Part shown: piece after piece, positions 29,471-58,701 of the stretch
Layout: each line of letters opens with the position of its first letter
How positions within the stretch are numbered: the first letter of the stretch is position 1
Assembly: GCA_025963715.1 (NCBI GenBank)
Contig: JAOQAG010000050.1
Location: 1 to 64,000, forward strand
DNA: 64,000 bases
Direction of reading: 5' to 3'
Source of the DNA: Bacteroidota bacterium
Lineage (GTDB): Bacteria; Bacteroidota; Bacteroidia; 2-12-FULL-35-15
The notes under the pieces: generated by a model
Seen by the model: only the letters and a program-made list of their open reading frames with translations
Database searches by the model: none
What the model was told of the DNA's origin: nothing
Translations under genes and position numbers: made by a program

Positions 29471-29501
29471 AGTGGTAAAACCATGGTAAACAAAAAATAC
29501 T

Positions 29502-29509
29502 TAAATTTG
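29502..29509 (+). promoter_or_regulatory. Candidate -7 element immediately before the glycosyltransferase ATG
   Basis: TAAATTTG matches TAnnTTTG and ends 6 nt before the ATG at 29516. If it is a real promoter, transcription would begin at or just before the start codon, giving an almost leaderless message; otherwise the gene starts at 29483 and this is coding sequence. Confidence 0.3.
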
Positions 29510-29515
29510 GTTTCC

Positions 29516-30454
29516 ATGTATTCGATCACACACATCATTAATCCTGTTGCTGCTCCTGCAAATTCCGAATTCGGTATTTGTCAGCCCATTGTATTTGAAT
29601 CCATCAGGCAGGCAAAAAACAATGCTGCCGGGTATGTGCATGTAGAGCTGTGTACGGTGCAGTATGCTGAAGACAGATCCGTGATCCCCGATTATTTTAT
29701 GATGTATCCCGATCTGCAGCGCTCTACAAATGAGCTGAAGCTTGCCAACAGCAGGAAACTGCCTTTTGTAAAAGAGATCCTGGAAAGCGCGTATCGTAAT
29801 TCCGCCTCCGAATACATCATCTATTCCAATACCGACATTGCGCTGATGCCTTATTTTTACACTGCCGTGAACGGGATCATTGAACAGGGATATGATAGCT
29901 TCATCATTAACCGCCGCTGTATTTCCGGGAAATATACGTCCGTTACTGAACTGGAATTAATGTACAGCGACATCGGGACACCGCACATCGGTTACGATTG
30001 TTTTGTATTTAAAAGAGAATTGGTTGAGAAATTTATACTGGCAGATGTATGCACCGGAATCCCGCATGCATGGACGGATCTGGCAAATAACCTGTTTTGT
30101 TTTTCTTCAAAATTCAAATTATTTACGCAAAAACACCTTACCTTTCACATTGGTATGGAGCTGTATAAAAACTGGGGCGGAAACGAATTGTGCGCACACA
30201 ATAAAGTAGAATACCTGAAAGTGCTGAAAGGATTGAAGCCGCATTTGAAGATAGAGAACATGCCGGGTTCCAACCTGAATATTTTCAAACGCCATTTCAA
30301 ATGGCTGATGAATCCTACCTTTCATTATCCCACTATGTTTTGGCTGGACCTGTCGCAGTTAGGCAGAAAACGATTGCCGCGCGAAAAAAGCGAGCTGAAA
30401 ACAACAAAAAATAAATACCTGCAATGGCTGGTAAAGCACATCAATTTTGAATAG
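29516..30454 (+). CDS. GT-A-like glycosyltransferase of unknown specificity
   Basis: The 312-residue cytosolic protein resembles nucleotide-diphospho-sugar transferases. It has a mixed alpha/beta N-terminal half with a D-x-D-like metal motif context in YIIYSNTDIALMPYFY (about 100-115), where the single Asp follows a Thr, so the motif is weak. HIGYDCFVFKREL and HAWTDLANNLF are polar segments likely to line the acceptor site. A longer start at 29483 is possible. It opens the sulfotransferase-rich locus but points away from the minus-strand operon that follows. I cannot name a family beyond the fold-level resemblance. Confidence 0.6.
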   Translation: MYSITHIINPVAAPANSEFGICQPIVFESIRQAKNNAAGYVHVELCTVQYAEDRSVIPDYFMMYPDLQRSTNELKLANSRKLPFVKEILESAYRNSASEYIIYSNTDIALMPYFYTAVNGIIEQGYDSFIINRRCISGKYTSVTELELMYSDIGTPHIGYDCFVFKRELVEKFILADVCTGIPHAWTDLANNLFCFSSKFKLFTQKHLTFHIGMELYKNWGGNELCAHNKVEYLKVLKGLKPHLKIENMPGSNLNIFKRHFKWLMNPTFHYPTMFWLDLSQLGRKRLPREKSELKTTKNKYLQWLVKHINFE

Positions 30455-30458
30455 CGCT

Positions 30459-31394
30459 TTACAATACGTTCGGTGATTTATAAAAAAGTCCCACAATTTT
30501 TCTGAAGATTCTGCGAAAAGGAGCATGCCTCTTGTTCAGCTTTTGAAACCGTTGTACTTCTTTCTGAAAGTCTGCCGGATACGACCGGATGACCGCATCA
30601 AATTTTTTGCAGGCATATTCGTACAGCAGTATATCGTAATGATTGTATTGCAAAAGCAATTGGTTGGTTTCTTCATCAAATTCCAGCACCGATTGCTTTT
30701 TATTGGTCACGTTTGTTTTCAGGTACAACGGAAAATTCCAGCCCAGACTGCGTTTGAAATGGATCAGCGATTCATCAAAACGCTCACAGATCCCAAACAG
30801 CTCGAAATGAGTATCAAATTTTTTTAATGCCCGCTGATATATTTCTTCATTCACTCCTCCAAATTCCAGCTCATGGGCACTGGCCAGCATGCGTACATGG
30901 CAGTTGTCGAATTGCCTTACAGGGCCTTCTTTCAGCAGGTCTTTCAGTGTGTATTTTCCTTCTTCCAGGCGTTTGTGAAAAAAATGTACTTTATCCTGCC
31001 GGATAAAATTAAAATCGGAGATGCATCTTTTTATCGGATCCCGCAGGAATGTAAAACAGGTAATTTCACCCGGATAATTTTCGAGGTAAGCATTAAAATT
31101 TATGTGTCCTTTAATGACTTTTATCTTTTGCCTTTCGGCTACACTAAGCTTCGTAAAAACACCGGGATCGCGGTAAAGATTATTGGTGTGGATCTTTAAA
31201 AAACGCCAGCGGTAATTTTCATTGATGATGTTTTGCATCGTAGAACCTGCCGTTTTCGGGATATGCAGAAACAAAACAGGGAATACAAGAGAGCGTGCCT
31301 GCCTGGGTGGAACAATTCCTGCAAAAGGGGGTAGCACATCAGGCTTCGTTTTTGTGGTTGAAAACGATGTTTGATAGGAGAGAGTAGCGGGCAT
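30459..31394 (-). CDS. Sulfotransferase family protein (Sulfotransfer_2 type)
   Basis: This 311-residue protein should move sulfate from PAPS to a hydroxyl or amino group, probably on a sugar. The 5'-phosphosulfate loop is FLHIPKTAGSTM (residues 42-53), the form seen in carbohydrate sulfotransferases of the Sulfotransfer_2 group. The 3'-phosphate motif is TFLRDPIKRCIS (about 115-126). The region after residue 130 has the helical pattern typical of the family. It is the last gene of the seven-gene minus-strand operon starting at 36145. The ~38-residue leader before the core is Pro/Thr-rich and not a signal peptide. Confidence 0.88.
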   Translation of the reverse strand: MPATLSYQTSFSTTKTKPDVLPPFAGIVPPRQARSLVFPVLFLHIPKTAGSTMQNIINENYRWRFLKIHTNNLYRDPGVFTKLSVAERQKIKVIKGHINFNAYLENYPGEITCFTFLRDPIKRCISDFNFIRQDKVHFFHKRLEEGKYTLKDLLKEGPVRQFDNCHVRMLASAHELEFGGVNEEIYQRALKKFDTHFELFGICERFDESLIHFKRSLGWNFPLYLKTNVTNKKQSVLEFDEETNQLLLQYNHYDILLYEYACKKFDAVIRSYPADFQKEVQRFQKLNKRHAPFRRIFRKIVGLFYKSPNVL

Positions 31395-31453
31395 GTGAGA
31401 GATTGAGAGTTTAATGTTGCTAGTGATTTTTTAATACATGGTTAGTTGTATTT

Positions 31454-32110
31454 TTATCGGTTAATAATTTTTAATTCGACTTTACTTTTATTTTCCTCCG
31501 TGGTGTTCCGGATCCGCTCTGCAAAAAACTCCGTTACTTCATTTCCCGGATCATCAATAATAAACATTATTTTTTCATTTGCACCTTTCGTTAACAATCT
31601 TTTTAATTTCTTAACTTTTGCCGTGTAGCTTTGCTCCGTAATTACGTATTGCTGGTTGTACTGGTTTTCCTGTCCGGGCAATAATTCATACCCCAGGCTT
31701 TTGTTATAAGAAATGGCCACAGGGTTATCTTTCAGCACTTTTATGAACGTGCGCTCTATTCCTACTATAAACGACAGATCGGTTAGTAATAAGGAGGCGC
31801 GCAATGGAATCAGCGTTTTTAAATATTCTTCTTTGACAATAAAAATGCCACCGCTCCTGGTTTCTTTTGCATGCCAGTCGGTTTGCGAACCGTTGATCAG
31901 TCCAATTTTTTCCCCATTGTAAGAAATCAAAAAATAATTATTGTCCACATTATCGATGGAAGCAAACCATTTTTCCTGCATTTCTGGTGTAATGTATTCG
32001 CGGTATTCCATAAAACGGTGGATCTGTGCGGAATTACGCCAGTTCCTGACCATCTCAATGTCGTTATGTGTTAACCGGATCAGTTGGATTCCGTAGCCGC
32101 TGATGATCAT
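31454..32110 (-). CDS. GNAT family N-acetyltransferase
   Basis: This 218-residue protein has the start of the sugar-modifying GNAT group (IQLIRLTHNDIEMVRNWRNS, IHRFMEYREYITPEMQEKWF), like PseH/FdtC-type enzymes that acylate amino sugars. The acetyl-CoA region is around residues 75-140, with GIERTFIKVLKDNPVAISYNKSLGYEL as the typical motif B end. Residues after ~165 are an extra charged tail. It sits 9 bp behind the glycosyltransferase gene, so it probably modifies a sugar nucleotide used by that locus. Whether it transfers acetyl or a longer acyl group from the neighbouring ACP is open. Confidence 0.82.
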   Translation of the reverse strand: MIISGYGIQLIRLTHNDIEMVRNWRNSAQIHRFMEYREYITPEMQEKWFASIDNVDNNYFLISYNGEKIGLINGSQTDWHAKETRSGGIFIVKEEYLKTLIPLRASLLLTDLSFIVGIERTFIKVLKDNPVAISYNKSLGYELLPGQENQYNQQYVITEQSYTAKVKKLKRLLTKGANEKIMFIIDDPGNEVTEFFAERIRNTTEENKSKVELKIINR

Positions 32111-32119
32111 CTGAAAAAA

Positions 32120-33037
32120 TTAGAGTACCGTTTGAATGGAATACGGTGGCTTGTGATGCTGGAACTGGTATAGCTTATAGATGTATTGCCCGATGATGCC
32201 AAGGCAGAGCAAAATAATGCTGGCAGTAAATAAAATACTCACGATCGTGGAAGTATACCCAAGCGGAACATTGTGTACGATTTTTTTATAGATAAAACGC
32301 AAACCGACAAAAAACGTAATGATCGAAAATAAAAGTCCGCTGTACGTCATTAATTTCAATGGCAAAGCCGAATAATTGACCAGGATATTGAAATAAAGAT
32401 TGGTAAGCTTAAAGAATGAGTAAGAGGATTTGCCGTATTTACGGGGATTGTGGTTCACATACGTAAATGTGATGTTACCCGTATACCACTGGATCACTTC
32501 ATCAATAAATAAAAAATTGTGCTGGTGATTCTCTTTTATTTTTTGCGCGATCTCTTTTTTTATTAAACGGAACGAAGAACCTTCGCCCATTTTATTCTCA
32601 AAATATTTGGATGTTTTTTTTACAAAATAGCTTCCCGCATTTTGCACGATCCCGTGTTGTTTGCTATTGTAAGTGCCGTACACCACATCTGCGCGTGTTT
32701 CCTCATATTTCGCCAGCAGCTTGGCAATTTCCTCGGGTGGATGCTGCAGGTCATCATCCATGGTAACGATCAGCTCGCCTTTACAAAAACCAAAGCCGCA
32801 TAAAATAGCATTGTGCTGCCCGAAATTGCGTGCAAATTTGATTGCTATAATTTTTTGCGGATGCTTGCTTTTCAATTCCATCAGCTTTTTCCAGCTGTTG
32901 TCCTTGCTGCCATCGTCAATAAAAATAACTTCGTAGGCAGTGGTTCCCATGGCGGCATCAATTCCCGCAAACAATTCATCCAGTCCGTTTTCCGAATTAT
33001 ATACAGGTATTACAATGGATAAGTAAGGTGTCGTCAT
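32120..33037 (-). CDS. Family 2 glycosyltransferase, polyprenyl-phosphate sugar transferase type
   Basis: The 305-residue enzyme has a GT-A domain followed by two C-terminal membrane helices (about 230-255 and 265-290), the build of ArnC/GtrB/dolichol-phosphate-mannose-synthase relatives that load a sugar onto undecaprenyl phosphate at the inner membrane. Motifs are IVIPVYNSENGL, FIDDGSKDNSW and the metal-binding MDDDLQHPPEEI (about 92-103). The product would be a lipid-linked sugar flipped for modification of a surface glycan. It lies 2 bp after the SDR gene in the operon. Confidence 0.9.
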   Translation of the reverse strand: MTTPYLSIVIPVYNSENGLDELFAGIDAAMGTTAYEVIFIDDGSKDNSWKKLMELKSKHPQKIIAIKFARNFGQHNAILCGFGFCKGELIVTMDDDLQHPPEEIAKLLAKYEETRADVVYGTYNSKQHGIVQNAGSYFVKKTSKYFENKMGEGSSFRLIKKEIAQKIKENHQHNFLFIDEVIQWYTGNITFTYVNHNPRKYGKSSYSFFKLTNLYFNILVNYSALPLKLMTYSGLLFSIITFFVGLRFIYKKIVHNVPLGYTSTIVSILFTASIILLCLGIIGQYIYKLYQFQHHKPPYSIQTVL

Positions 33038-33039
33038 TT

Positions 33040-33783
33040 TTATTTTTCAAGGAGATAACCTCCGTCTAAAGTAATATTTATTCCTGTGATCCAGCGCGAT
33101 GCTTCCGAAAGTAAAAAAATGGCGGTATTCGCCACGTCTTCGGGATAACCCACACCCAGCGGATATTGTTTGATGTGTGCTTCCATGGTTTCTTTGCTCA
33201 CTTTTTGTTCGCTCATTTCATACATCGGCGTTTTTACCATGGCCGGTGAAATGCAGTTGGAGCGAATGCCATTTGATGATTCCAGCGAAATGGATTTGCT
33301 GAATGCTTCAATCGCAGCTTTTGCACCGGCATATACCGCGCCGCCGCGATAGGGATGCTGGCTGGCGATGGAAGAAATAAAAACCACAGAGGCTTTTGCA
33401 TTTAATTTTTTCCGGCGCATAATACCCGCCATCAGCAACACCGGAATTTCGTAATTGATGTTCAGCGTTTCGTCTATTTTTTCGGGATCTAAAAATTTTA
33501 TAGGTAATGTTTTTACAATTCCTGCCGAATGTACAATGCCATCCAGCTGCGGTAATTTTTCAAGCAGATCCGTTCGTTGTTGTTCAATCAGCAGATCGGC
33601 AGCAAACAATTGGTGGCCGCTGCCTTTTAAAAGCGCTAATGTTTCTTTTAGTTTTTTTTCATCACGGCCGGTAAGTACTAAAATGCCGCCCATTTCGCTG
33701 ATGCTGATAGCAGTTTGACGGCCAATCCCGGAAGAGGCGCCGGTCACTAAAATTGTTTTATGATGGAGATGAAAAGGCGTCAT
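33040..33783 (-). CDS. Short-chain dehydrogenase/reductase, FabG-like
   Basis: From the ATG at 33783 this is a 247-residue classical SDR, likely reducing a 3-oxoacyl thioester with NAD(P)H. The cofactor motif is TGASSGIG near residue 14, the catalytic Ser is in VFISSIAS and the Tyr/Lys pair in YAGAKAA. The C-terminus WITGINITLDGGYLL is standard. A longer frame from 33810 would overlap the KAS gene by 25 bp; the shorter start gives a clean 2-bp gap. Its place after two KAS III genes and an ACP suggests it reduces their product. Confidence 0.9.
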   Translation of the reverse strand: MTPFHLHHKTILVTGASSGIGRQTAISISEMGGILVLTGRDEKKLKETLALLKGSGHQLFAADLLIEQQRTDLLEKLPQLDGIVHSAGIVKTLPIKFLDPEKIDETLNINYEIPVLLMAGIMRRKKLNAKASVVFISSIASQHPYRGGAVYAGAKAAIEAFSKSISLESSNGIRSNCISPAMVKTPMYEMSEQKVSKETMEAHIKQYPLGVGYPEDVANTAIFLLSEASRWITGINITLDGGYLLEK

Positions 33784-33785
33784 AT

Positions 33786-34841
33786 TTAGATTTCGATAAC
33801 GGGCGGACAAATTAAATGTTCGGTGCTGAGTGCAACGCTGCCCCAGGATAACCCTACGCCAAAGCCCGAAAAGATCATTTTATTTTTTTTACTTTTTACC
33901 TGTTCCGATAATTGCGAAACGATGGTAACGGGGATAGAAGCAGAGCTGGTATTCCCATATTCCTTTAATGAATATGGCACTTTTGCAGGATCCAGCTTTA
34001 GTTTTTTCCGGATGCTTTCGTTCATTAATTTATTTCCCTGGTGAAAAACAAAATGGTCGTAATCATCAATTGTTGTAGAATTATATTGCAACAGCGCATT
34101 AATATTTGGCGCCACTTCACGCAACGAAAAATTAAACACTTCCAGTCCGTCCAGCTTTAAATTAGCGCGGCTGCGGATAATTCCCTTCTCCACTTCTTCT
34201 TCTTTGTAGGATGCATCTTCCAGCTTTTGGCGCGATCCTCCGTCAGGAATAATAATGGCATTATAACCCGAGCCATCGCTTTGCAGGTTAAAATCCATCC
34301 TGGCAGCCTGTTCATCGTATTCCAATGCCGTTGCTGTTCCGGCATCGCCAAACAAAGGATAGGTGCTTTTATCGCGCTTGTTCAGCGAAATGGAGGAAAC
34401 ATCGCCCACGAGCAATAATCCTTTTTTTATTTTGGTATTCGACATCATGCTCGCGATCATCGACAATCCGTATACATAACCCGAGCAGCCCAGGTTGATA
34501 TCAAAAGCAAGCGTAGTTTTTGGCAAACCCAGCTTATCCTGCAGGATCACGGCAGAAGCGGGTAAAAAATAATCGGGTGATTGCGATACAAAAACAAGGA
34601 TCTCCACATCGGCAGCATTCCAGTTCAGCTCTTTCAATAAATTTTGCGCAGCGGCAAAACAAAAATCAGCGCTGGTTGTACCGCGTTCAGCGATCCTGCG
34701 GTTTTCAATTCCGGTCGTCTTGATCAATAGCTGCCGCTCCGGTTCGGAGATCCAGTCATAATCGAGGTTCGACTCATTTTTTTTAGGAACACAAGCCGCA
34801 ATTCCTGATAACTTTACATGAGAGAGAGAGAAAGTTGCCAT
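33786..34841 (-). CDS. 3-oxoacyl-ACP synthase III (KAS III) family protein
   Basis: The 351-residue protein is a FabH-type condensing enzyme. All three catalytic residues are present: Cys119 in NLGCSGY, His267 in FVFHQGN and Asn297 in YGNTSS. KAS III enzymes condense an acyl-CoA starter with malonyl-ACP, although relatives act as acyltransferases. A second family member (35138-36145) and an ACP flank it. The pair is clearly diverged, so they may do successive or different condensations. It is distinct from a housekeeping fabH by context. Confidence 0.9.
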   Translation of the reverse strand: MATFSLSHVKLSGIAACVPKKNESNLDYDWISEPERQLLIKTTGIENRRIAERGTTSADFCFAAAQNLLKELNWNAADVEILVFVSQSPDYFLPASAVILQDKLGLPKTTLAFDINLGCSGYVYGLSMIASMMSNTKIKKGLLLVGDVSSISLNKRDKSTYPLFGDAGTATALEYDEQAARMDFNLQSDGSGYNAIIIPDGGSRQKLEDASYKEEEVEKGIIRSRANLKLDGLEVFNFSLREVAPNINALLQYNSTTIDDYDHFVFHQGNKLMNESIRKKLKLDPAKVPYSLKEYGNTSSASIPVTIVSQLSEQVKSKKNKMIFSGFGVGLSWGSVALSTEHLICPPVIEI

Positions 34842-34871
34842 TGTTTAGTTTTATGTGCGATTATATTAGCG

Positions 34872-35105
34872 TTAAGAGACCCTGCTCTTCACAATATTGA
34901 ATAAATCATTCATTGTTTTACTGTTTCGAAGGTCTTCGCCGGTAATGGTTACATTATAATCTGCATCGATCAGTGCAATAAGGATCAGCGCATGCATGGA
35001 GCTCCATTCGGCAATGTCCCTGAAATTGGTATCCGGTTTTAAAACGCCCGGTGTAATTTCATCAATTTCGTTTTCTACTTTTTTAATAAAATCATCTATG
35101 TTCAT
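34872..35105 (-). CDS. Acyl carrier protein
   Basis: From the ATG at 35105 the protein has 77 residues and the four-helix acidic ACP pattern. The 4'-phosphopantetheine site is unusual: in place of the common Asp-Ser-Leu it reads Trp-Ser-Ser-Met, with Ser36 as the modified residue. The helix II that follows (ALILIALIDADYNVTI) fits. The context between two KAS III genes argues that it carries the growing acyl chain of this locus. An upstream extension to 35141 overlaps the neighbouring gene and is not needed. Confidence 0.88.
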   Translation of the reverse strand: MNIDDFIKKVENEIDEITPGVLKPDTNFRDIAEWSSMHALILIALIDADYNVTITGEDLRNSKTMNDLFNIVKSRVS

Positions 35106-35137
35106 GTGCAATACGATTGTGGTTTCAATAAGGATGA

Positions 35138-36145
35138 TCAAAGTTTAATAATGGTTGCAGACCATGATAAACCGGTGCCAAAGCCCGCAAGTAAAATGTA
35201 TTGTCCTTTTTGCGCTTTCCCCGATCTGATGCTTTCACACAAGGCAATAGGAATTGTTGAAGATACGGTATTTCCACAACTCTCTAAATAATTAACGAAT
35301 TTTTCTTCGGGGATCCCAATTTTTTTCCGGATCACATCGTTCATGAATCTATTGGTTTGGTGAAACACAAAAAGATCGATCTCTTCCATTTTCATGTTGG
35401 ATTTTTCGAGCAGTTCCGAGATCATTAACGGCACTTTTCTCAATGCGAAATTAAAAATAGCGGTTCCGTTCATATAAAAATTCGCATCGCTGGTAATGTT
35501 GCCGTAATCATCGCGGTTTTCCTGTGTGGATTTTGCTGTTACCGGGTTCCTGGCGCCACCATCCCTGATAATGATCTTATCCGCACCTTTGCCATCCGTT
35601 CCAAAAACAAAAGAACCAATGCCGCTTTCATCGCCTGCCGAAATAAGCGTTGCTGCTGCACCATCGCCAAAAAGGTAACGGGAGCTTTTGTCTTTCGGAT
35701 GAAATGTTTTGGTGAGTGTGGACGAAGTAAGGAACAATACATTCTTTCGTTCACAGGCTTCCACCAATCCCTTGGCGAGGCTTAATCCGTAAGCATATCC
35801 GCTGCATCCCTGGTTAATATCGATAGCGCCTGCCTGCTGTGGAATTCCCAATTTTTCCTGTATGATACAGGCTGTTGCAGGCGTGTAATAATCAAATTCC
35901 TGCGAACAGAAAATGATAAAATCAATGTCGTTTTTATCAATATTGTGTTCCTCAAAAAGTTTGATCGCACTCTGCACCGCAAGATCCGATGCAGTAGTGT
36001 GCGGTGCTACAATGTGGCGTTCGCTGATGCCAAGGCGGGCAATGTTGGTGTTATTAACTAGTTCCGGAAAATCATTAAAATAATCGACATTCGTGTATGT
36101 ATCCGGTGGAAGGTAATAACTGATTGCTTTGATAGAAGCTTTCAT
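35138..36145 (-). CDS. 3-oxoacyl-ACP synthase III (KAS III) family protein
   Basis: This 335-residue FabH-like protein has an intact Cys-His-Asn triad: Cys114 in NQGCSGY, His262 in FVFHQTN and Asn292 in CGNTVSS. It is the first gene of the operon running to 30459. A TAAATTTG -7-like element on the minus strand (36172-36179) lies 26 nt upstream. With the ACP, the second KAS III and the SDR it forms a minimal acyl-building set, plausibly for a short hydroxyacyl group to decorate a sugar. Confidence 0.9.
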   Translation of the reverse strand: MKASIKAISYYLPPDTYTNVDYFNDFPELVNNTNIARLGISERHIVAPHTTASDLAVQSAIKLFEEHNIDKNDIDFIIFCSQEFDYYTPATACIIQEKLGIPQQAGAIDINQGCSGYAYGLSLAKGLVEACERKNVLFLTSSTLTKTFHPKDKSSRYLFGDGAAATLISAGDESGIGSFVFGTDGKGADKIIIRDGGARNPVTAKSTQENRDDYGNITSDANFYMNGTAIFNFALRKVPLMISELLEKSNMKMEEIDLFVFHQTNRFMNDVIRKKIGIPEEKFVNYLESCGNTVSSTIPIALCESIRSGKAQKGQYILLAGFGTGLSWSATIIKL

Positions 36146-36171
36146 AATTACGTTTCATGTTGTGGTGAAAA

Positions 36172-36179
36172 CAAATTTA
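36172..36179 (-). promoter_or_regulatory. Candidate -7 element of the KAS-ACP-GT operon
   Basis: The minus strand reads TAAATTTG, matching TAnnTTTG, 26 nt before the first gene of the operon. No spaced -33 TTG is obvious. Confidence 0.4.
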
Positions 36180-36251
36180 TATAAAAAAATTAAATAAACC
36201 AGTCATTTAACACTTTTAACATTTTCGTGAAAATCAGATGGGGATTGCTTT

Positions 36252-37106
36252 TTAAAGCGATGTGTATCCTAATGTGCTGAGAATGGCAGCGAATTTTTTA
36301 TTGAGTTCCGCAATGGTTTTTTCCTGCAGTTTTTCCTTATGATCGCCCGGGAGCATTTTGCGCTTGTGCCGCTGAATGTCCTCTGTTTGTGGGATAAATG
36401 GGTTGTTCGCTTCCCAGTATTTTAATGTTTCTTCTTTTTTTGAATAATCAATAAAGTGCAGCATTTTTAAAAGCGATTCCTGGAAATTACTGATCAGGTC
36501 TTCATACAGGATCAGCAATACATTCGGTTGCCCGATGTATTTTTGGAGGTAGCCGGTATAGGTTTTTAAAAAGCGGTCCGACATATCCATTACGTGCTGA
36601 TCAATGCCAGCTTCCAGTGCATGCGCCCGTTTTTGCATAAATTTATCCGTGTAAACGGGATGACTGTATGCGATCGAAAAAAATTGCGAAGTAAGAATGT
36701 CGCGCGGATCACGCAATACCAGAATTATTTTTTGCTCCGGCCGTACCGCTAATTTTTCGAACGGATACCGGAACACACCAAAATAAAATCCTTTCCTGTT
36801 CAATAATTCCGTTGTAAATTTTTCATCCAAATATAAGCTGTCGCGTACTTCCGGGCGGGTAGTCAAATAACCTTCCATGTCGATGTGTGTTTTTTGTTCG
36901 CGTTGCGAAAGATCTTTGATCAGTACATTTAAAAATGTGCTGGCACATTTGTGAGTGGAAAAAATGTAGACGGAATGGCCTGTTCCTTCATCCGGCAATT
37001 TCCCTTTTTTACGTAACAATTTTGCTTCCTTGCTGAACAGCCATCTGAGCCGGTGAACCGGAACAGTGATCGTGTGAAGCTTTATCCGCTCAATTAGTGC
37101 ATTCAT
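36252..37106 (-). CDS. Sulfotransferase domain protein
   Basis: The 284-residue protein has the P-loop-like PAPS motif FSTHKCASTFLN (residues 49-60) and the 3'-phosphate motif LVLRDPRDILTSQF (about 129-142), as in Sulfotransfer_1 enzymes. The substrate is not predictable. It is transcribed away from the next three genes, with only 61 bp between start codons; a minus-strand TAATTTTG (37133-37140) may serve as its -7 box. Confidence 0.85.
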   Translation of the reverse strand: MNALIERIKLHTITVPVHRLRWLFSKEAKLLRKKGKLPDEGTGHSVYIFSTHKCASTFLNVLIKDLSQREQKTHIDMEGYLTTRPEVRDSLYLDEKFTTELLNRKGFYFGVFRYPFEKLAVRPEQKIILVLRDPRDILTSQFFSIAYSHPVYTDKFMQKRAHALEAGIDQHVMDMSDRFLKTYTGYLQKYIGQPNVLLILYEDLISNFQESLLKMLHFIDYSKKEETLKYWEANNPFIPQTEDIQRHKRKMLPGDHKEKLQEKTIAELNKKFAAILSTLGYTSL

Positions 37107-37167
37107 TGTATCGTAAAGGTATTAATTAAACGCAAAATTAATATATTAGCAGTTAAATTTACAAGCA

Positions 37168-38016
37168 ATGCCGGAATCAACAGTGCCTTATGAATTAATT
37201 TACAGTCAGCATGGATTACCGGCCGCATCCGCTTTCAGAAAAATCACTTCGGGTTTACGGATGCGTCCCTCGCTTTTTATTGCCGGTGCTCAAAAAGCAG
37301 GCACCACATCACTTGCCGGTTATCTTTCAAACATTCCCGGCGTTATTCCACCACACGAAAAGGAAATCTCCTATTTCAATAACGATCAGCGTTTCCGCTT
37401 AGGCGACAATTGGTACCGCTCGTTTTTTGCCACCAATTTTGTAAAAAATAAACTGGAAAAAAAAACAGGGATTTTACACATTACTTACGATGCTACCGCT
37501 AATTATTTTGAAGAAATAAAAGCAGCAGAACGGATCAAAAAATTTAATCCCGACGCCAAAGTAATAGTGGTGCTGCGCAATCCGGTCGACCGCGCCTGGT
37601 CGCATTACAAAATGGCTGTTAAATACGGGTTTGAAAAAAATACGTTTCGCGATGCACTCGATGAAGAAGCGGAACGCATTTTGTCAAATACTGCCGAACA
37701 TAATTTTGCTTTTCAGCGATTGGGATACCGCAGCAAAGGCGAGTATCTCCGGTTTCTTCCGGCCTGGATGAATGCATTTGGGAACAATGTACTGGTTGTT
37801 TTTTTTGAAGAATTATTCAGTGATTCGATTGCTCCGCTGCAACAGATCCATGATTTTTTAAAATTAAAAACCGCGCCCGATCTGGATAAATTAAAACAGC
37901 TCAACAAAGGAAGCGAAGATCAATTGAATGCTGCCGATCGTGATCTGCTGAATGCGCATTACAAGCAATTCAACAACGAGCTGGCGCTTTACTTAAAACG
38001 CGATCTGCCATGGTAA
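37168..38016 (+). CDS. Sulfotransferase domain protein
   Basis: This 282-residue protein resembles heparan/carbohydrate sulfotransferases of the Sulfotransfer_1 family. The PAPS 5' loop is FIAGAQKAGTTSLA (residues 37-50), and the 3' motif VVLRNPVDRAWSHY (134-147) is the common bacterial form. A KEISYF segment (65-70) follows the loop as usual. It starts a tightly packed three-gene unit: the next gene overlaps by 7 bp and the third by 4 bp, so translation is coupled. Confidence 0.9.
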   Translation: MPESTVPYELIYSQHGLPAASAFRKITSGLRMRPSLFIAGAQKAGTTSLAGYLSNIPGVIPPHEKEISYFNNDQRFRLGDNWYRSFFATNFVKNKLEKKTGILHITYDATANYFEEIKAAERIKKFNPDAKVIVVLRNPVDRAWSHYKMAVKYGFEKNTFRDALDEEAERILSNTAEHNFAFQRLGYRSKGEYLRFLPAWMNAFGNNVLVVFFEELFSDSIAPLQQIHDFLKLKTAPDLDKLKQLNKGSEDQLNAADRDLLNAHYKQFNNELALYLKRDLPW

Positions 38017-38894
38017 ATCCATTCATCAACCGGATTTTTTACAGGCTGTGGCAATTAAAACATCGCCCGGTAAAAAATGCAGATCCTGCAGTTGCAGCAA
38101 CGGCGCCACTTTTTATCGGCGGCATGTTCCGTTCGGGAACGTCATTGGTTACCAAATTATTGATGGATAACGGTTTTGATGCCGGACCCGAAAATCATTT
38201 GTTGCAGCCGATCGGTTTTCGTAAAACATTAAATCCAACCGGTTTTTTTGAGAATTACCTGTTCATGGAATGGTCGATGCTGTACATGAAATTGCACGGT
38301 ATGAGTGGTGCTTCTATGAATGAACCGGAGCGTTGGAAAACGATCATGGAAATGAATATTCGGGAGGAAGAGTTCGCGCGTTTTTGCATCCTGGAAAACA
38401 GTGACGACCGGATCTCCAATAAAAATAAAGTGGATGTTTTAAAAAATTACAGCAGCAGTAATTTGGATCAATACATTCAGCAGAATTTTGGTGCAAATCC
38501 AATTATTAAAAATCCGCATTTCACACTTTTTTTTAACACAATGTTTCAGCACTGGCCGCATTCAAAATTGCTGCTGGTGTTTCAACATCCGCAACAGGTT
38601 TTAAATTCCGTTAATTCAAAAATGCTGCCGGTAGATCCATTGCTGTACAAGCGTTATTACGAAAAGGCTTTGAATGCAAACGATCCGCGCATCGCATTTT
38701 TTTCGCTGGAACAATTATTTGCCGATCCGGAAGGTTCGCTGCAGGCATTATCGGCCTGGACCGGGAAAAAAATGAACACAAAAGCAACATTGGCTGTGCG
38801 GGAAACAAAATTACAAACACAGCAACAATTACCAGCGGAAGTGCTGGATATTTACGAGCGATTGAAACAAAATTGTATAAATAAAAACCGATGA
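38010..38894 (+). CDS. Sulfotransferase-like protein (weak 3' motif)
   Basis: The 294-residue protein carries the 5' loop FIGGMFRSGTSLVT (residues 35-48) of the Sulfotransfer_3 group. The 3'-phosphate region reads LLVFQHPQQVLNSV rather than the expected R-x-P, so PAPS binding may be altered. It overlaps the preceding sulfotransferase gene by 7 bp and is followed by a glycosyltransferase with a 4-bp overlap. It could be an active sulfotransferase with a diverged cofactor site or an inactive partner. Confidence 0.8.
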   Translation: MVNPFINRIFYRLWQLKHRPVKNADPAVAATAPLFIGGMFRSGTSLVTKLLMDNGFDAGPENHLLQPIGFRKTLNPTGFFENYLFMEWSMLYMKLHGMSGASMNEPERWKTIMEMNIREEEFARFCILENSDDRISNKNKVDVLKNYSSSNLDQYIQQNFGANPIIKNPHFTLFFNTMFQHWPHSKLLLVFQHPQQVLNSVNSKMLPVDPLLYKRYYEKALNANDPRIAFFSLEQLFADPEGSLQALSAWTGKKMNTKATLAVRETKLQTQQQLPAEVLDIYERLKQNCINKNR

Positions 38895-40072
38895 AAGTTG
38901 TTCATTTTTGTACGTATAGTTCGGGCGGTGCCGCCATTGCTGCGATCCGACTGCACACCCTGTTGTGCGAAAGCGGAATTGATTCCAGCATCGTGTTTTT
39001 GTACAAAAATAATTTGTCGGTAAAAAACAGTATTGATTTTCGCGATGCATTGTCTTTCACGAAAAAGATCAGTGCAAAAATCCAGAATAAATTACTGAAC
39101 CGTTTGCAGCAAAATAAAATAAAGAGCAGGGGAGAAGCGCCCGAATTATTTTCGTTTCCGCAATCGGCCTGGGATATTTCCAGTCATCCGTTAGTGAAAA
39201 CCGCGGATGTGATTCATTTTCACTGGATGGCAAATTTCCTGGATTACCGTTCATTTTCTTTAAAAGGATTTGCCAATAAAAAGATCTGCTGGACGCTGCA
39301 CGACCTCAATCCGTTTTCAGGCGGTTTCCACTACGAAGATTGGTTTAATAACGAACCATGGACGGCGCTTTCAAAATCCAATCAAAAATACAAATACGAT
39401 TATGTCACTGCTGCAAATATAACGCTGATCGCACCATCGGAGTGGATCATGCGCGCATCGCAAAACAGTTTTGTGTTCAAATCAAAACCGCATGTACACA
39501 TTCCCAATCCTTCATCTGATTCTTTTTTTTACACAGAAAAGGAAGCAGCGCGGAAACAACTGGGAATAAAAGCAAGCGGAAAAATTTGTTTCCTTCCCGG
39601 AGATAACATTAATTATTTACGCAAAGGAATGATAGAGCTGGAAGCCTTATTGATGAATCAAAAAACGGACATCACTTTTTTAACAACGGGTCAACGCCCA
39701 ATGAATTTAGGCGCAAACGAACAGCATTTTACAGGAATTGTTTCCAACGAGCAAAAAATGGCATTGTGTTACAGCGCTTCCGATCTCATGGTATTTCCTT
39801 CGCTGGATGAAAATTATTCCAACACGCTTGTGGAATCCCTGTTGTGCGGCTGCCCGGCTGTATGCTTTGATATTGGCGGAAATAAAGAGATCGTGAAAGA
39901 TCACAGTTTCGGTAAGATCATCTCGTATAAAAATTGGGAAGCAATCATTTCTGTAATAAATGAAGATGCTTTTACTGAAGAGCAACGCAGAAATTTAGCT
40001 CAAAAAGCAGCAAGTGAATTTGCATCCGCACCGCTGATGGATAAGATGATTGCGTTGTACAGAGATTTGTGA
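38891..40072 (+). CDS. Family 4 glycosyltransferase (WcaL-like)
   Basis: The 393-residue protein has a two-domain GT-B fold. The N-terminal half contains FCTYSSGGAAIAAIRLH and ICWTLHDLNPFSGGFHYEDWF, typical of the exopolysaccharide GT4 enzymes that bear H-D-x-N-P-x-x-G-G. The donor-binding half has the E-x7-E motif in SLDENYSNTLVESLLCGCPAV (quoted in part). It should add a sugar from a nucleotide donor to a lipid-linked glycan on the cytosolic face. It ends the coupled unit with two sulfotransferases, suggesting sulfated sugar repeats. Confidence 0.9.
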   Translation: MKVVHFCTYSSGGAAIAAIRLHTLLCESGIDSSIVFLYKNNLSVKNSIDFRDALSFTKKISAKIQNKLLNRLQQNKIKSRGEAPELFSFPQSAWDISSHPLVKTADVIHFHWMANFLDYRSFSLKGFANKKICWTLHDLNPFSGGFHYEDWFNNEPWTALSKSNQKYKYDYVTAANITLIAPSEWIMRASQNSFVFKSKPHVHIPNPSSDSFFYTEKEAARKQLGIKASGKICFLPGDNINYLRKGMIELEALLMNQKTDITFLTTGQRPMNLGANEQHFTGIVSNEQKMALCYSASDLMVFPSLDENYSNTLVESLLCGCPAVCFDIGGNKEIVKDHSFGKIISYKNWEAIISVINEDAFTEEQRRNLAQKAASEFASAPLMDKMIALYRDL

Positions 40073-40614
40073 TCCGGCGGCTAAACTTTAGCCACAGATT
40101 CACAGATTAAAAAATTAGGTTGTGTTGTAGAACAATGTTGATATGAAAACATAAATATCCTCCAGAACTGTCATCCCGCACTCGTTGCGGGATCGGCTAA
40201 TTAAATACTGCAAACATTTACGGGATCCCGCAACGAGTGCGGGATGACAGTATTATTTATGAATATTGTAGAAAACAACATTTTCCTACAACAACACCAA
40301 AAATTATAAACGAATTATACTGATCAAATCGCAAAGCGATTAATTAGTGTAATTTTTTATTTACTAATAAAATCTGTGAATCTGTGGCTCCATTTAAGTA
40401 TAGCATCTGCGGTTAGCAAACTGAAAATCGCTTTTAATTAACAGATCCCGGGTCAGGCCCGGGATGACAGTACAAAGGGAAAATTATTCTCTGAATTAAC
40501 ATACACAGTATTAATACAGCAAAATCTTCTTAGTGTTCTTCGTGCCTTAGTGGTAAAAATAAACGAAGCATCTGCGTCCAGCAAACTTTAAACTTTCCAA
40601 CTTTAAACTTTGAA
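40073..40614. other. Intergenic rich in hairpin repeats
   Basis: No gene is seen. Contents are two perfectly inverted 27-nt copies of the cgggatgaca family at 40168-40250, another copy at 40444-40470 with different arm sequence, cacagattcacagatt text near 40095 with its partner near 40375, a cgtgccttagtggtaaaaat phrase near 40540, and an aactttaaactttccaactt run near 40585. Confidence 0.75.
40168..40250. repeat. Perfect inverted pair of cgggatgaca-family hairpins
   Basis: Each 27-nt copy is itself a hairpin, and the two face each other over 29 bp. The sequence just right of it (tattatttatgaatattgta) resembles bases 11-32 of the window, so a larger repeat of this type also straddles the left window edge. 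Confidence 0.85.
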
Positions 40615-41442
40615 CTAACTTCTAATCCAGCTCAGCACCCGTTTCCCCAACCAGGGTTCCATTTCCTTTATTTTCGGATAATACAGCGCTTCCAGTTTTT
40701 TCTTTTCTACTTCCGGGATCTTATGGGAAGGCCCGCGGTTAATTACTTTATTGAAGGGATAATCCGCAAAACTTTCCGGTGTTTTCACACCTAAAAAATC
40801 AAAAACAGAACCCAACAATTGTTCCGGTGTGCTTTTCAGATCTTCATAAAAACACAAATGAAATTGTTCCTTTGGAAACACGCTCGTCCAGTTTTTTACC
40901 GTATACCCATAATCGCTGCGGATCAATGAAGGATACGAATTAAAATGCCATTCAAAATCTTCGTGTGTGAGTTTTTCAAACGGAATGTTCATCCCCGTGC
41001 AATAATTGTTGAGTGCATGCGACCATGCCCGCTCCACCGGATCACGTACAATAAAAATCACTTTCAGGTTTGGATTGTGGCGTTTGATGTATTTCACACG
41101 TTTCCATTCCATCGTCGCGTAAGCGGGCGTAATTTCGCCTTTGAGCTTATTGCCGGCGTTTTTAAAATGTTTTAAATACCAGCGCATCGAACGGTGAAAA
41201 TACCAGTCGTAATAATGAATTTCTTTTTTCTCTGATAAAAATAATTCCGGCTGCACTTTCATGTTTGCATACAACCAGGTGGTGCCGGATTTTTGGGCGC
41301 CGATCACTAAAAAGTCGGGAAAATCCTTGCGCTTTTTTTTGCGGTTCAGCGGAAAAAATCGTTGTTTGATCAAGGTGATGGGAAGCGTGAGCCAGATCAC
41401 CGCGATTATAAACAAATATTTTCTCTTATAACGGATTATCAT
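40615..41442 (-). CDS. Membrane-anchored sulfotransferase
   Basis: This 275-residue protein has an N-terminal hydrophobic helix (about 8-24), then the PAPS loop FLVIGAQKSGTTWL (residues 44-57) and the 3' motif IFIVRDPVERAWSH (about 123-136). KKEIHYYDW (about 70) matches the bacterial heparan-sulfotransferase-like group. It is the fifth sulfotransferase-type gene within 11 kb. The membrane helix suggests action at the inner membrane on lipid-linked glycans or lipids. It is divergent from the MBOAT-SGNH gene. Confidence 0.9.
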   Translation of the reverse strand: MIIRYKRKYLFIIAVIWLTLPITLIKQRFFPLNRKKKRKDFPDFLVIGAQKSGTTWLYANMKVQPELFLSEKKEIHYYDWYFHRSMRWYLKHFKNAGNKLKGEITPAYATMEWKRVKYIKRHNPNLKVIFIVRDPVERAWSHALNNYCTGMNIPFEKLTHEDFEWHFNSYPSLIRSDYGYTVKNWTSVFPKEQFHLCFYEDLKSTPEQLLGSVFDFLGVKTPESFADYPFNKVINRGPSHKIPEVEKKKLEALYYPKIKEMEPWLGKRVLSWIRS

Positions 41443-41488
41443 TTTTATTTAATTATTTTTGCCAATATACTAATTTTAATTTTTAGAC

Positions 41489-43984
41489 TTGATCAGGATC
41501 TTAAATTTTTTAAATTTACCGCTTGACTATCTAAAGCTGACTTTCTCAGATGTTTCTGCTGAAAAAAAAGCACGCGATCAACAGCTTATTCCGCAATTTT
41601 TACTGCTCTTTTTAATAACCGCTTTTTCTCACTTTTTTAAAGTATTTACCGAATACGGCTTCAATCGTTTACTGATCGCTTTTTCATTATTGCTTCCGTT
41701 TTATTATTCCGTAAAAATTAAATACCGTCTGCCTTTTCTCATTGCTTTTTTTACAGGCTTTTTGGTGTATGCGCTCGGAATTGTAAGTGCTGCATTTTAC
41801 ATTTTGTCCGCTTTATTTTTACTGGCTGTGATCCGCAGCAAAAAAAGTTTTTGGATGTACCTCCTGCTTTTTGCATTTATAACCGGTTTGATCGTACTGC
41901 GGCTTGAAATTGTTTATGCACCCAAATTAATTTACGCCGTTCCGTACATCGCCACAGCATTCATGTTTCGGGGCATCCGCGTGTATTATGAGTCGAAGCA
42001 CGGCTTTTTAAAATCAGGTTTCTGGATGGATCTCGCTTTCTTTTTTATTCCCGCCAATTTATGTTTCCTGTTGTTTGGCGTGGTCGATCCCGTTAAATTT
42101 TCGAACTCATTCGTAGGTTTTCCTGCTTTTAAAACAGGCATAAAGCGCATTTCACTCGGAATGGGTTTGGTGCTGTTGTACCGTTTTATCCTCAATGTTT
42201 TTCCCATCTCTTTCGAGGAAGTCATCAATTTCAGCAGCCTGTTTCATTACGCTGTTTTAAAATATTTAATTGTGATCAACCTTGCCGGAATCCTGATCTC
42301 CGGCTTGGGAACGCTTGGTTTATGGGGTTTTGAGCTGCCTCCGCTGTTTGGTAATTTATTGCTTGCTACTTCCTTTACAGAGATGTGGCGCAAAGTAAAC
42401 GCCTATTGGCGCGAGTTCATGATCCGTATTTTTTATTATCCGCTGTTTTTAAAATTGCGGAAACTATCCATGTTCCTGCGCATTTTTATTGCCATCAATG
42501 CCGCATTTATTATCTCCTGGATCCTGCACGATTACCAGCTGTTCTGGATCTCCGGCGAGTGGCATCCGAAATTAACCGGACTGCTGTACTGGCTTTTGTT
42601 CGGAAATTTTGTTGCCGTAAATGTGTACCAGGAATTTTTTATCGGGAAACCGCCCGTACGGAATTTTATTACCCGCGTGTTGTTTGCCGCCGGTGTTTTT
42701 TTTACCTGCGCTTTTTTATGGCTGCTCTGGAACTCCGAAACCATCAGCGAATTTGGCTATCTCATCTATTCTTCTTTTCATTCCACGCAATTTTCCTGGA
42801 GCGATCTTGCGTATACTTTGCTTGGTTTGCTGGCGGTGTACGTTGCCGTGATGTTCATTGCCGATCAACTGAAAGTGCAACAGAAAAAAATAGAAGAGAT
42901 CTTATTACTGTTTGTATTGCCTTTATTTTTTGCATTCCTCACGCTTTCTTCCTTTTCATTTTTCGAAAAAAACTTTCCGGCGCTTAAAAATAAATTAGCC
43001 GTATTTGATAAAATAGAATTGAGCGAAGACGAGAATTTTTCGCGCGATGAAGGCTATTACGAGCATGTGGTAGCGGGAAGCAAAAGTACCGATTGGCCGT
43101 GGGAAGTGCATTTGAAAGGAAATGAAAAATGGGGTAATTCCAAAGGCGCCACCCGCCGTACCGGTGATATGATCCTGCGCGAGTTTGTTCCTTTGTCAAA
43201 TACCAACATGGGTTATTTTTGGTTTCACATCAATTCCGATGGTTTGCGTGATAAAGAATATACATTGGAAAAACCTCCGGGAACATTCCGTATGGCCATG
43301 CTTGGTGGTTCCAACGAATGCGGTTACGGTGTAGAAAAAGAAAATATCTTTGAAACCATCGTCGAAAATAAACTCGATTCCATTTATTTACCTCAGCAAA
43401 AAAATGTGGAGATCATCAATTTCGCCGGGCTGGGAAATATGCTGCTGCAAGGGGAAGAGATCACCAAGCAAAAGGTGCTGCGTTACAAACCCGATGTGAT
43501 CATTTATTTTGCGCATCCCGAAGAAGTAAAACACATTGCACGTAATTTTTCAAAATTGATCCTGAACGGAACAGATCTTAAATACGATTCACTAAAAAAC
43601 ATCAAAACAGAAGCGCGTGTTTCACAAAAAATGTCGCGGCAGGAAATGATCACGCGATTGATGCCTTATTCCGAACGCATTATCAATTGGGGATATAACG
43701 AGATCGCAACTGATTGCCGTAAAAACGGAATTGTGCCCTTGTGGGTATATTTGCCAACTCCCAAAGATGAAAATCCGTATCCGAATTTCAAACACCTTTC
43801 AGAGATCGCGGCAGCGCATGGTTTTGTGATCATTGATCTGAGCGATGCTTACAAAGGATCTCCGTTCGATCAAATGCGTGTAAGCGAAGAAGATTTTCAT
43901 CCGAGCGTACTCGGCAATAAGCTTATCGCAAAATTATTATTGCAAAAAATTCTGGAAAAGAAAAAAGAATTGGGATTGAACTAG
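41489..43984 (+). CDS. MBOAT-like membrane O-acyltransferase fused to an SGNH domain
   Basis: Translation appears to start at TTG 41489, since no in-frame ATG occurs for ~120 codons. Of 831 residues, ~30-490 form about a dozen membrane helices with MBOAT features: SFTEMWRKVNAYWREF (295-310), YYPLF, and a His at 347 in WILHDY placed like the family's catalytic His. Residues ~500-831 are an extracytoplasmic SGNH domain: GGSNECGYGV with Ser608 and DFHPSVLGN with Asp802/His804. The usual pairs (AlgI/AlgJ, DltB/DltD, PatA/PatB) are separate genes. The expected role is moving an acyl group across the membrane onto a glycan. The MBOAT match is inferred from motif layout only. Confidence 0.75.
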   Translation: MIRILNFLNLPLDYLKLTFSDVSAEKKARDQQLIPQFLLLFLITAFSHFFKVFTEYGFNRLLIAFSLLLPFYYSVKIKYRLPFLIAFFTGFLVYALGIVSAAFYILSALFLLAVIRSKKSFWMYLLLFAFITGLIVLRLEIVYAPKLIYAVPYIATAFMFRGIRVYYESKHGFLKSGFWMDLAFFFIPANLCFLLFGVVDPVKFSNSFVGFPAFKTGIKRISLGMGLVLLYRFILNVFPISFEEVINFSSLFHYAVLKYLIVINLAGILISGLGTLGLWGFELPPLFGNLLLATSFTEMWRKVNAYWREFMIRIFYYPLFLKLRKLSMFLRIFIAINAAFIISWILHDYQLFWISGEWHPKLTGLLYWLLFGNFVAVNVYQEFFIGKPPVRNFITRVLFAAGVFFTCAFLWLLWNSETISEFGYLIYSSFHSTQFSWSDLAYTLLGLLAVYVAVMFIADQLKVQQKKIEEILLLFVLPLFFAFLTLSSFSFFEKNFPALKNKLAVFDKIELSEDENFSRDEGYYEHVVAGSKSTDWPWEVHLKGNEKWGNSKGATRRTGDMILREFVPLSNTNMGYFWFHINSDGLRDKEYTLEKPPGTFRMAMLGGSNECGYGVEKENIFETIVENKLDSIYLPQQKNVEIINFAGLGNMLLQGEEITKQKVLRYKPDVIIYFAHPEEVKHIARNFSKLILNGTDLKYDSLKNIKTEARVSQKMSRQEMITRLMPYSERIINWGYNEIATDCRKNGIVPLWVYLPTPKDENPYPNFKHLSEIAAAHGFVIIDLSDAYKGSPFDQMRVSEEDFHPSVLGNKLIAKLLLQKILEKKKELGLN

Positions 43985-57552: not shown

Positions 57553-58701
57553 TTATAAGCCAAGCCATCCGGCAATGATATTCTTTTGAATTTCAGATGT
57601 GCCCGAATAAATGGTACTGCCGATCGCATCACGCAAAGTGCGTTCAATTTCGTAACTCGTCATGTAGCCGTTTCCGCCGTGTATCTGCATCGTTTCCATG
57701 GCAATGGCCCGGAACGCTTCACTCACAAAAAGTTTCGCTACCGAAGCATTGATCGCATTCTCCCTGCTCTTGTCAATTCCTGCAGCAGCTTTGTATGTGA
57801 GCATCCGCGCAGCTTCCAGCTGTGTTTTCATTCCCGCGATGGTATGCGCAACCGCTTGTTTTTTTCCGATAGGCTCATTCCCCATCGTGCGTGTTTGTGC
57901 ATAATTTACGGATAGTTCGAGCAATCGCTCCATCGTGCCAACGTGACAAGCCGCAATACCAATGCGTTCCCATTCCATCGAATAATTAAAAATTCCGGCA
58001 CCCGCACCAATCGCGCCTAAAACAGCGCTTTCCGGAACGGTTACATTTTCAAAGATCAGCTCACACATGTTGCAGCTGCGCAATCCCATTTTTTCAAACG
58101 TTTCGCCGACGGTAATACCGGGCGTATTTTTATCAATGATAAAAGCACTGATGCCTCCATAGTATCCTTTGGTTGCATCTGTTACAGCGTAAACTAAAAT
58201 AAGATCCGCTACCGGCCCGTTCGACGTAAATGTTTTAATACCATTCAGCACATATCCCTTCGCCGTTTTTTCTGCTTTTGTTTTAATTGAAAAGGCATCT
58301 GATCCCGATCCGCTTTCTGTCATAGCGTTTGCCGCGATCATAGTTCCCTTGCACATCCCCGGCAAATACTGCTTTTTTTGTGCTTCCGTTCCGTATTTCC
58401 AGATTGGGATCACGCAGGCAAGCAAATGCGCGCACACCGCAAAATTTAATCCGCCGTCGGTACACCCGTAACCCAGCGCTTCCAGTGCAATAATAGTGGA
58501 AACAGGATCAAGTCCGGCACCGCCAAATTCGTTCTCAACCGGTAATCCCTGCAATTGCTGATCGGCACATTTCAGCCACAACGCTTTCGAAAATTCCTGG
58601 TCACGGTCACGCGAAACCGCATCTTTGTTTAGCTCTTTGCGGGCAAACGTACTGATGTTATCTTTTATAAGCTGCTGTTCCTTACTGAGTGAAAAATCCA
58701 T
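57553..58701 (-). CDS. Acyl-CoA dehydrogenase-like prolyl-carrier-protein oxidase (PltE-like)
   Basis: The 382-residue protein has the full acyl-CoA dehydrogenase fold: AMTESGSGSDAFS (126-138) for flavin and substrate, GIKTFTSNG, the QIHGGNGY region and IYSGTSEIQ near the end. The MCAD-type catalytic Glu in Y-E-G-T is replaced by Ser. Instead Glu245 in EWERIG matches the isovaleryl-CoA-dehydrogenase position, also used (from memory) by the prolyl-PCP oxidase PigA. In the pyrrole pathways this enzyme oxidises prolyl-S-PCP by four electrons to pyrrolyl-2-carboxyl-S-PCP. It overlaps the adenylation gene by one base. A plain acyl-CoA dehydrogenase is the alternative, less likely in this context. 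Confidence 0.85.
   Translation of the reverse strand: MDFSLSKEQQLIKDNISTFARKELNKDAVSRDRDQEFSKALWLKCADQQLQGLPVENEFGGAGLDPVSTIIALEALGYGCTDGGLNFAVCAHLLACVIPIWKYGTEAQKKQYLPGMCKGTMIAANAMTESGSGSDAFSIKTKAEKTAKGYVLNGIKTFTSNGPVADLILVYAVTDATKGYYGGISAFIIDKNTPGITVGETFEKMGLRSCNMCELIFENVTVPESAVLGAIGAGAGIFNYSMEWERIGIAACHVGTMERLLELSVNYAQTRTMGNEPIGKKQAVAHTIAGMKTQLEAARMLTYKAAAGIDKSRENAINASVAKLFVSEAFRAIAMETMQIHGGNGYMTSYEIERTLRDAIGSTIYSGTSEIQKNIIAGWLGL

Follow-up and report, generated by a model that had tools for sequence, protein, structure and literature searches.

The stretch of DNA examined here, 64,000 nucleotides of contig JAOQAG010000050.1 from a Bacteroidota bacterium (assembly GCA_025963715.1; called the window below), carries five sulfotransferase genes interleaved with genes for glycosyltransferases and acyl transfer. 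This raises the question of what such a gene set assembles and whether its parts serve a single product. A first, sequence-only reading placed the locus at positions 29516-43984 and suggested a glycan or glycolipid sulfated at several positions and also acylated. The locus is real, conserved and bigger than first described: those limits leave out positions 56088-62558, which likely belong to the same functional unit. The reading favored here, with a probability of roughly 0.6, is a conserved surface-glycan assembly system of Bacteroidota. Its product would be sulfated, hydroxyacylated, O-acylated with a (halo)pyrrole-2-carboxyl group via a Dlt-like relay and probably linked to protein. This reading is based on gene content and sequence motifs, on a predicted fold and on the conserved linkage and joint occurrence of the genes.

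Linkage of the Locus in Related Genomes

The sulfotransferases, the acyl cassette, the pyrrole branch and a TMTC-like enzyme probably serve one product, for which two loci that hold nearly all parts together, L201 and L188, provide the strongest evidence. L201, from the distant relative G416, contains within 20 kb the glycosyltransferases GT2 and GTx29, a GNAT acyltransferase, an Asp/Asn hydroxylase-like protein, the carrier protein, the ligase, the dehydrogenase and the sulfotransferase ST_B36. It further contains ST_C/E, ST_D38, GT4, the MBOAT-SGNH protein, a homologue of the enzyme encoded at position 60618 of the window and an adhesin-like protein of the type IX secretion system (T9SS). 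The run ST_B36-ST_C/E-ST_D38-GT4-MBOAT has the order and strands found in the window, which adds ST_E40 between GT4 and MBOAT. A similarly complete gene set lies in one stretch in L188 of G110.

Outside the window, nine loci have the carrier gene directly next to the MBOAT-SGNH gene, both read from one strand, with gaps of 31, 26, 32, 1, 19, 3, 9, -8 and -8 bp. These loci belong to the window's genus (G011, G029, G024 and G007) and to two other families (G110, G174, G327, G177 and G206). Among 59 genomes, including that of the window, seven contain a full or truncated MBOAT homologue, six a close homologue of the prolyl dehydrogenase and six both (hypergeometric probability of 1.6e-7, uncorrected for kinship). 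Of 15 MBOAT loci outside the window, 11 have a sulfotransferase gene at most 115 bp away from the MBOAT gene. The layout, which the sequence-only reading had proposed to compare across related genomes, thus recurs.

The gene order is shuffled among relatives, the unit is split in the window and the modification genes differ between genomes, all of which would fit a hot spot where unrelated genes for surface modification gather and have no product in common. This explanation is nevertheless very unlikely in view of the near-identical gene set in distant families, the tightly abutting pairs of MBOAT and carrier genes and the gene run common to the window and L201.

Sulfotransferases and Sulfate Donor Supply

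The five sulfotransferase genes are intact open reading frames packed within 11 kb, and all score above the Pfam cut-offs, which bears out the genes first picked at 30459, 36252, 37168, 38010 and 40615. ST_A30 (30459..31394, minus strand) matches Gal-3-O-sulfotr (1.7e-14) and Sulfotransfer_2 and shows the loops HIPKTAGST and FLRDPIKRCIS. ST_B36 (36252..37106, minus strand; Sulfotransfer_1, 6.7e-12) shows THKCASTFL and LRDPRDILTS, and ST_C37 (37168..38016, plus strand), of the Sulfotransfer_3/1 type (Sulfotransfer_3, 1.4e-16), shows AQKAGTTSL and LRNPVDRAWS. ST_D38 (38010..38894, plus strand; Sulfotransfer_3, 5.2e-9) keeps the 5' loop FRSGTSL. ST_E40 (40615..41442, minus strand; Sulfotransfer_1, 7.7e-20) contains an N-terminal transmembrane helix and the loops AQKSGTTWL and VRDPVERAWS. 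The original count of at least three family subtypes is fair. A recent tandem duplication, already rejected in the sequence-only reading, is ruled out because the pairwise identity among the five enzymes is only 21-34%.

Alignment with homologues from relatives shows the 5'-phosphosulfate-binding loop kept in all five enzymes and the 3'-phosphate-binding Arg...Ser in ST_A30, ST_B36, ST_C37 and ST_E40. The residues for binding 3'-phosphoadenosine 5'-phosphosulfate (PAPS), on which the initial interpretation depended, are therefore conserved and complete in four of the five enzymes. In ST_D38, Gln occupies the position of the 3'-phosphate Arg, which is present in the relatives' loci L188 and L074. 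ST_D38 may thus be altered, and its activity is uncertain. A sulfated and acylated glycan remains the best reading, with the number of sulfated positions unproven.

The PAPS genes cysN, cysD and cysC, which the first reading had proposed to locate, are present with a nearby cysQ on contig C12 of the same genome; PAPS can therefore be made and the by-product 3'-phosphoadenosine 5'-phosphate (PAP) removed. Searches with PF13469 and PF03567 gave only two further sulfotransferase matches elsewhere in the 4.9-Mb genome, at C4:122437-122745, inside an open reading frame of ~850 amino acids, and at C16:37157-37780. Sulfated capsular polysaccharides with gene clusters have been described for Vibrio sp. 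KMM 8419 (PMC11641403) and Cobetia marina KMM 1449 (PMC11766843). Set beside the descriptions of these systems, the window differs in its five diverged sulfotransferases, its hydroxyacyl and pyrrolyl branches and its TMTC-like enzyme.

The Fused MBOAT-SGNH Protein

The MBOAT-SGNH acyltransferase (41489..43984, plus strand) is seen only weakly by Pfam (E value of 0.008, below the cut-off), and no significant match emerged when a profile built from its alignment was run against PDB sequences. Its fold assignment rests on an AlphaFold2 model with a mean pLDDT of 72, falling below 50 in the linker that contains Y523 and Y524. Residues ~52-430 of this model match DltB with a Z score of 20.1 (4.0 Å, 345 residues; matched span 54-427), as well as PORCN and HHAT, and residues ~599-831 match SGNH hydrolases with a Z score of ~15 (matched span 599-827). 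The protein is thus predicted to consist of a DltB-like fold (~52-430) fused to an SGNH domain (~596-831), and the identity first proposed for it finds its support in this model. An alignment of 14 sequences with 25-31% identity to the window protein shows H347, Y523, Y524, S608, N644 and H804 to be invariant. H347 would be the catalytic His of the MBOAT fold, and S608 and H804 the catalytic Ser and His of the SGNH domain. Around the two tyrosines, which follow the last predicted transmembrane helix and precede the SGNH domain, the sequence is otherwise variable. At L193 of G258 (~8849-11297), the MBOAT and SGNH halves are found in two open reading frames, through either a frameshift or a natural division into separate proteins.

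In the Dlt pathway, DltB takes D-alanine from a carrier protein and passes it via the tyrosine of DltX to DltD, which is an SGNH protein; pathways with other MBOAT-SGNH pairs are said to be carrier-free and fed by acyl-CoA (PMC12148441). The system described here resembles the Dlt pathway (DltA, DltC, DltB, DltX and DltD) in that a single operon, as seen in relatives, encodes an adenylation enzyme and a carrier together with the MBOAT and SGNH parts. Further likenesses are the DltB-like predicted fold, the conserved His and a Tyr between the membrane and SGNH domains. It differs in its proline-type rather than D-alanine code, the added dehydrogenase and halogenase-like protein, the fusion of MBOAT and SGNH in one chain, the Gram-negative host and the presumed glycan acceptor. 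PatA/PatB-type acetylation likewise joins MBOAT and SGNH parts with a Tyr relay, which is a prediction for the window protein, but is described as fed by acyl-CoA (PMC12148441), whereas here a carrier gene is attached and both domains form one protein. Gram-negative bacteria would, with this arrangement, possess an MBOAT-SGNH system fed by a carrier protein.

The Prolyl-Pyrrole Genes

The locus shows two chemically different acyl branches instead of one, and the MBOAT-SGNH gene belongs with the pyrrole/carrier operon at 56-60 kb, a connection absent from the sequence-only reading. This operon contains the peptidyl/acyl carrier protein (60184..60447, minus strand), with an IIDSI motif, and an adenylation enzyme annotated as ligase of L-proline to a peptidyl carrier protein (PCP) (58701..60191, minus strand). 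The specificity code of the ligase, DLFYLALVCK, is of the proline type and not of the D-alanine type. Nine of its positions could be aligned with 6o6e, an L-proline ligase of solved structure, and eight of them agree; the ninth has Phe in place of Leu. The pattern DL[FLC]YLALVCK is found in 13 of 13 sequences, one of them incomplete at the last position, at overall identities down to 33%; a text search of the literature for the code gave no paper.

The neighboring L-prolyl-PCP dehydrogenase (57553..58701, minus strand) finds its best matches in the PigA model and the prolyl-ACP dehydrogenase 4irn, with an NCBIfam score of 411.5 below the cut-off of 500. A flavin-dependent halogenase-like protein resembling CmlS and PltA (56088..57497, minus strand) contains the flavin adenine dinucleotide box, the active-site Lys conserved in RKPG and the WxWxIP motif, features that related oxygenases share to a large extent. 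Sequence alone does not reveal the activity of such a protein, and a halogenation step is only a possibility. In L190 (3141-5955), two halogenase-like genes stand side by side, and in L187 (6029-7048), a luciferase-like flavoprotein is inserted beside the dehydrogenase.

Natural products such as pyoluteorin and prodigiosin typically depend on sets of prolyl adenylation enzyme, PCP, dehydrogenase and halogenase. The locus could accordingly be read as a specialized-metabolite cluster whose product is a small pyrrole molecule with sulfate and halogen substituents; the KASIII enzymes would perhaps be primed by pyrrolyl-PCP. The likeness to the pyrrole-2-carboxyl-PCP pathways (PltF/PltE/PltL/PltA, PigI/PigA/PigG and CloN) extends to the prolyl ligase code, the dehydrogenase, the carrier and the halogenase-like protein. 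Here, however, no polyketide synthase or nonribosomal peptide synthetase module is seen, and the genes occur in linkage with those for sulfotransferases and for an acyltransferase of the membrane. Most KASIII-cassette loci lack pyrrole genes, the pyrrole genes track MBOAT and not the KASIII genes, and the membrane-bound MBOAT-SGNH enzyme points to an extracytoplasmic acceptor, making a metabolite cluster improbable.

The Ketosynthase Cassette

The GNAT enzyme and the acyl-building set noted at the outset are confirmed and belong to the second acyl branch. All genes of this branch lie on the minus strand: KAS35, a KASIII enzyme (35138..36145); an acyl carrier protein (ACP; 34872..35105); the other KASIII enzyme, KAS33 (33786..34841), whose Cys119, His267 and Asn297 do not vary among 21 homologues; a short-chain dehydrogenase/reductase (SDR; 33040..33783) resembling 3-oxoacyl-ACP reductases; GT2 (32120..33037); and GNAT (31454..32110). 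A profile match characterizes the last as a PseH-like N-acyltransferase with putative amino-sugar acylation activity. The cassette KAS35-ACP-KAS33-SDR-GT2-GNAT is found whole or in part in ~22 of 58 relatives. Strains of Mesonia, Aequorivita and Haloflavibacter (L135, L111 and L096) also possess a KASIII cassette.

A search of GTDB genomes gave 80 non-redundant cassette loci from many Bacteroidota lineages; rates refer to this set because a larger one of 100 loci holds duplicates (e.g., L039 and L063). SDR is present in 75 loci, GT2 in 72, GNAT in 62, ACP in 59 and a homologue of the 60618 enzyme in 36. A sulfotransferase lies within 10 kb of the cassette in 45 of the 80 loci, compared to ~0.9% expected from 98 PF13469 matches in the 212 Mb of the 58 relatives (0.9% of 20-kb stretches). 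This excess is about fifty-fold, with observed and expected counts obtained by different detection methods, and rules out co-location by chance. Other recurrent neighbors are B12-binding radical SAM enzymes (25/80), DegT aminotransferases (19/80) and Asp/Asn hydroxylase-like proteins (16/80), which suggests further glycan modifications.

In the O-polysaccharide of Flavobacterium psychrophilum, an adjacent set of ketosynthase, ACP, ketosynthase and reductase genes with an acyltransferase is assigned to a 3,5-dihydroxyhexanoyl group (PMC6519341). By gene content, the cassette resembles this wfpC-wfpG set, which serves 3,5-dihydroxyhexanoylation of Qui2NAc4N. It differs in the ArnC-like GT2 within the cassette and in the lack of pglE/pglF beside it. 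From the similarity of the two ketosynthase/ACP/reductase sets, we infer that the cassette may supply a short hydroxyacyl group that is joined to an amino sugar as an amide.

Glycosyltransferases and the Acceptor

Of the three glycosyltransferases first listed, GT2 and the GT4-type enzyme (38891..40072, plus strand; Pfam match) are confirmed. The third, the GT-A-like GTx29 (29483..30454, plus strand), has no Pfam match but is conserved and contains a DxD-like motif (YSNTDIAL); its gene adjoins that of ST_A30 in G024, G007 and G110. GT2 carries C-terminal transmembrane helices and resembles polyprenyl-phosphate glycosyltransferases, with ArnC as the closest NCBIfam model, GtrB and ArnC as the closest solved structures and a further likeness to dolichol-phosphate mannose synthase.

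A fourth enzyme (60618..62558, plus strand) resembles the TMTC/PMT glycosyltransferases of the GT-C class: its membrane half contains a DDE motif that is invariant, and its C-terminal part consists of tetratricopeptide repeats (TPRs). PMT_2 and TMTC families are protein O-mannosyltransferases fed by polyprenyl-phosphate sugars. The window enzyme shares with them the GT-C-like domain with DDE followed by TPRs, and a polyprenyl-phosphate-sugar synthase-like gene is present in the locus. It differs in being bacterial and in a membrane half that falls below Pfam detection. A protein-linked glycan is preferred because homologues of this enzyme match PMT_2 (L201) and TMTC_DUF1736 (L152) above the Pfam cut-offs. 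Neighboring T9SS-exported surface proteins, a type-B secreted PKD protein (48077..51862, plus strand) and a type-B secreted adhesin-like protein (52257..55733, plus strand), are speculative candidates for the acceptor.

The main rival to a protein acceptor is a lipid-linked one, in which the same sulfated and acylated glycan would be part of a lipopolysaccharide O-antigen, an exopolysaccharide or a glycolipid, and the TMTC-like enzyme would modify a glycolipid in the manner of ArnT. The relationship of GT2 to ArnC and GtrB speaks for this possibility, as does the action of the known ketosynthase set in an O-polysaccharide. The window's locus, however, contains no recognizable gene for Wzx, Wzy, Wzz, a ligase or an ABC exporter, and the TMTC/PMT-plus-TPR architecture recurs together with adjacent T9SS adhesins; a lipid-linked acceptor is thus a tenable but doubtful alternative.

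Proposed Pathway

For the protein-linked glycan, a multistep pathway is proposed, in which all of the chemistry, including the Tyr relay and the halogenation, and the identity of the acceptor are inferred. The two KASIII enzymes, ACP and SDR would build a short 3-hydroxyacyl chain, with two condensations leading to a 3,5-dihydroxyhexanoyl group, which GNAT would place on an amino sugar by N-acylation in the cytoplasm. GT2 would load the acylated sugar onto polyprenyl phosphate, followed by lengthening of the glycan by GTx29 and GT4. Several cytoplasmic PAPS-dependent sulfotransferases would sulfate different positions, with PAPS supplied by CysDNC and PAP cleared by CysQ. Outside, the TMTC/PMT-like enzyme would transfer the sugar, possibly onto T9SS-exported surface proteins. 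In the separate Dlt-like branch, the adenylation enzyme would activate L-proline and load the carrier, the PigA-like dehydrogenase would oxidize the prolyl group to pyrrole-2-carboxyl, and halogenation may follow. The DltB-like half (His347) would then move the acyl group through the membrane to the invariant Tyr, from which the SGNH half (Ser608) would esterify the sulfated glycan.

Several observations weigh against this pathway. The window's MBOAT gene, ending at 43984, and its carrier gene at 60184 lie ~16 kb apart, and the unit formed by these genes is also split in G003. The distant relatives G143 (L185) and G332 (L186) contain MBOAT-SGNH homologues near several sulfotransferases without carrier, proline or other pyrrole genes, and G177 and G206 have no halogenase. 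The locus shows neither a 4,6-dehydratase nor an aminotransferase for amino sugars, and Pfam gives no DegT match in the window; DegT enzymes occur elsewhere in the genome. The cassette acyltransferase is a GNAT enzyme, unlike the PglD-type acyltransferase of F. psychrophilum. The literal DltX motif FxYxxF is absent, with a GYYxxL-like stretch containing Y523/Y524 at the expected place, and the block V Asp of the SGNH domain is displaced from the usual DxxH position; the acyl-Tyr relay is for these reasons only predicted.

Genomic Setting

The genome comprises 51 contigs, and T9SS sorting domains mark its bearer as one of the Bacteroidota. On its 5' side, the locus is bordered by a gene for a DnaN-like sliding clamp (27741-28862), and on the other side by genes for a glutathione peroxidase and a UvrD-type helicase. 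A defense system was rejected for lack of a PADLOC match, and no RNA element was matched by Rfam in 24000-64000. A REP-like palindromic element, GTCATCCCGCACTCGTTGCGGGATC, is found in eight copies in the window, compared to zero expected, at 6442-6466, 13200-13224, 18581-18605, 18959-19037, 40170-40248 and 55973-55997. Some copies form inverted pairs, one of which sits between the GT4 gene and that of ST_E40.

Implications

The open-access literature yielded no pyrrolyl Dlt-like system and no description of a surface glycan with sulfate, hydroxyacyl and (halo)pyrrole groups. The locus may, on a tentative view, encode a Gram-negative, carrier-dependent counterpart of Dlt, in which fused DltB, acyl-Tyr and DltD functions would transfer a (halogenated) pyrrole-2-carboxyl group onto a multiply sulfated, protein-linked Bacteroidota glycan. 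If true, this would join the pyrrole chemistry of natural products to the acylation of envelope polymers and predicts a surface glycan bearing sulfate, hydroxyacyl and (halo)pyrrole groups together. A carrier-fed MBOAT-SGNH enzyme in one chain would also lend itself well to tests of the model of an acyl-Tyr relay. For the Bacteroidota as a whole, the findings suggest that surface-glycan loci rich in sulfotransferases are a common feature.

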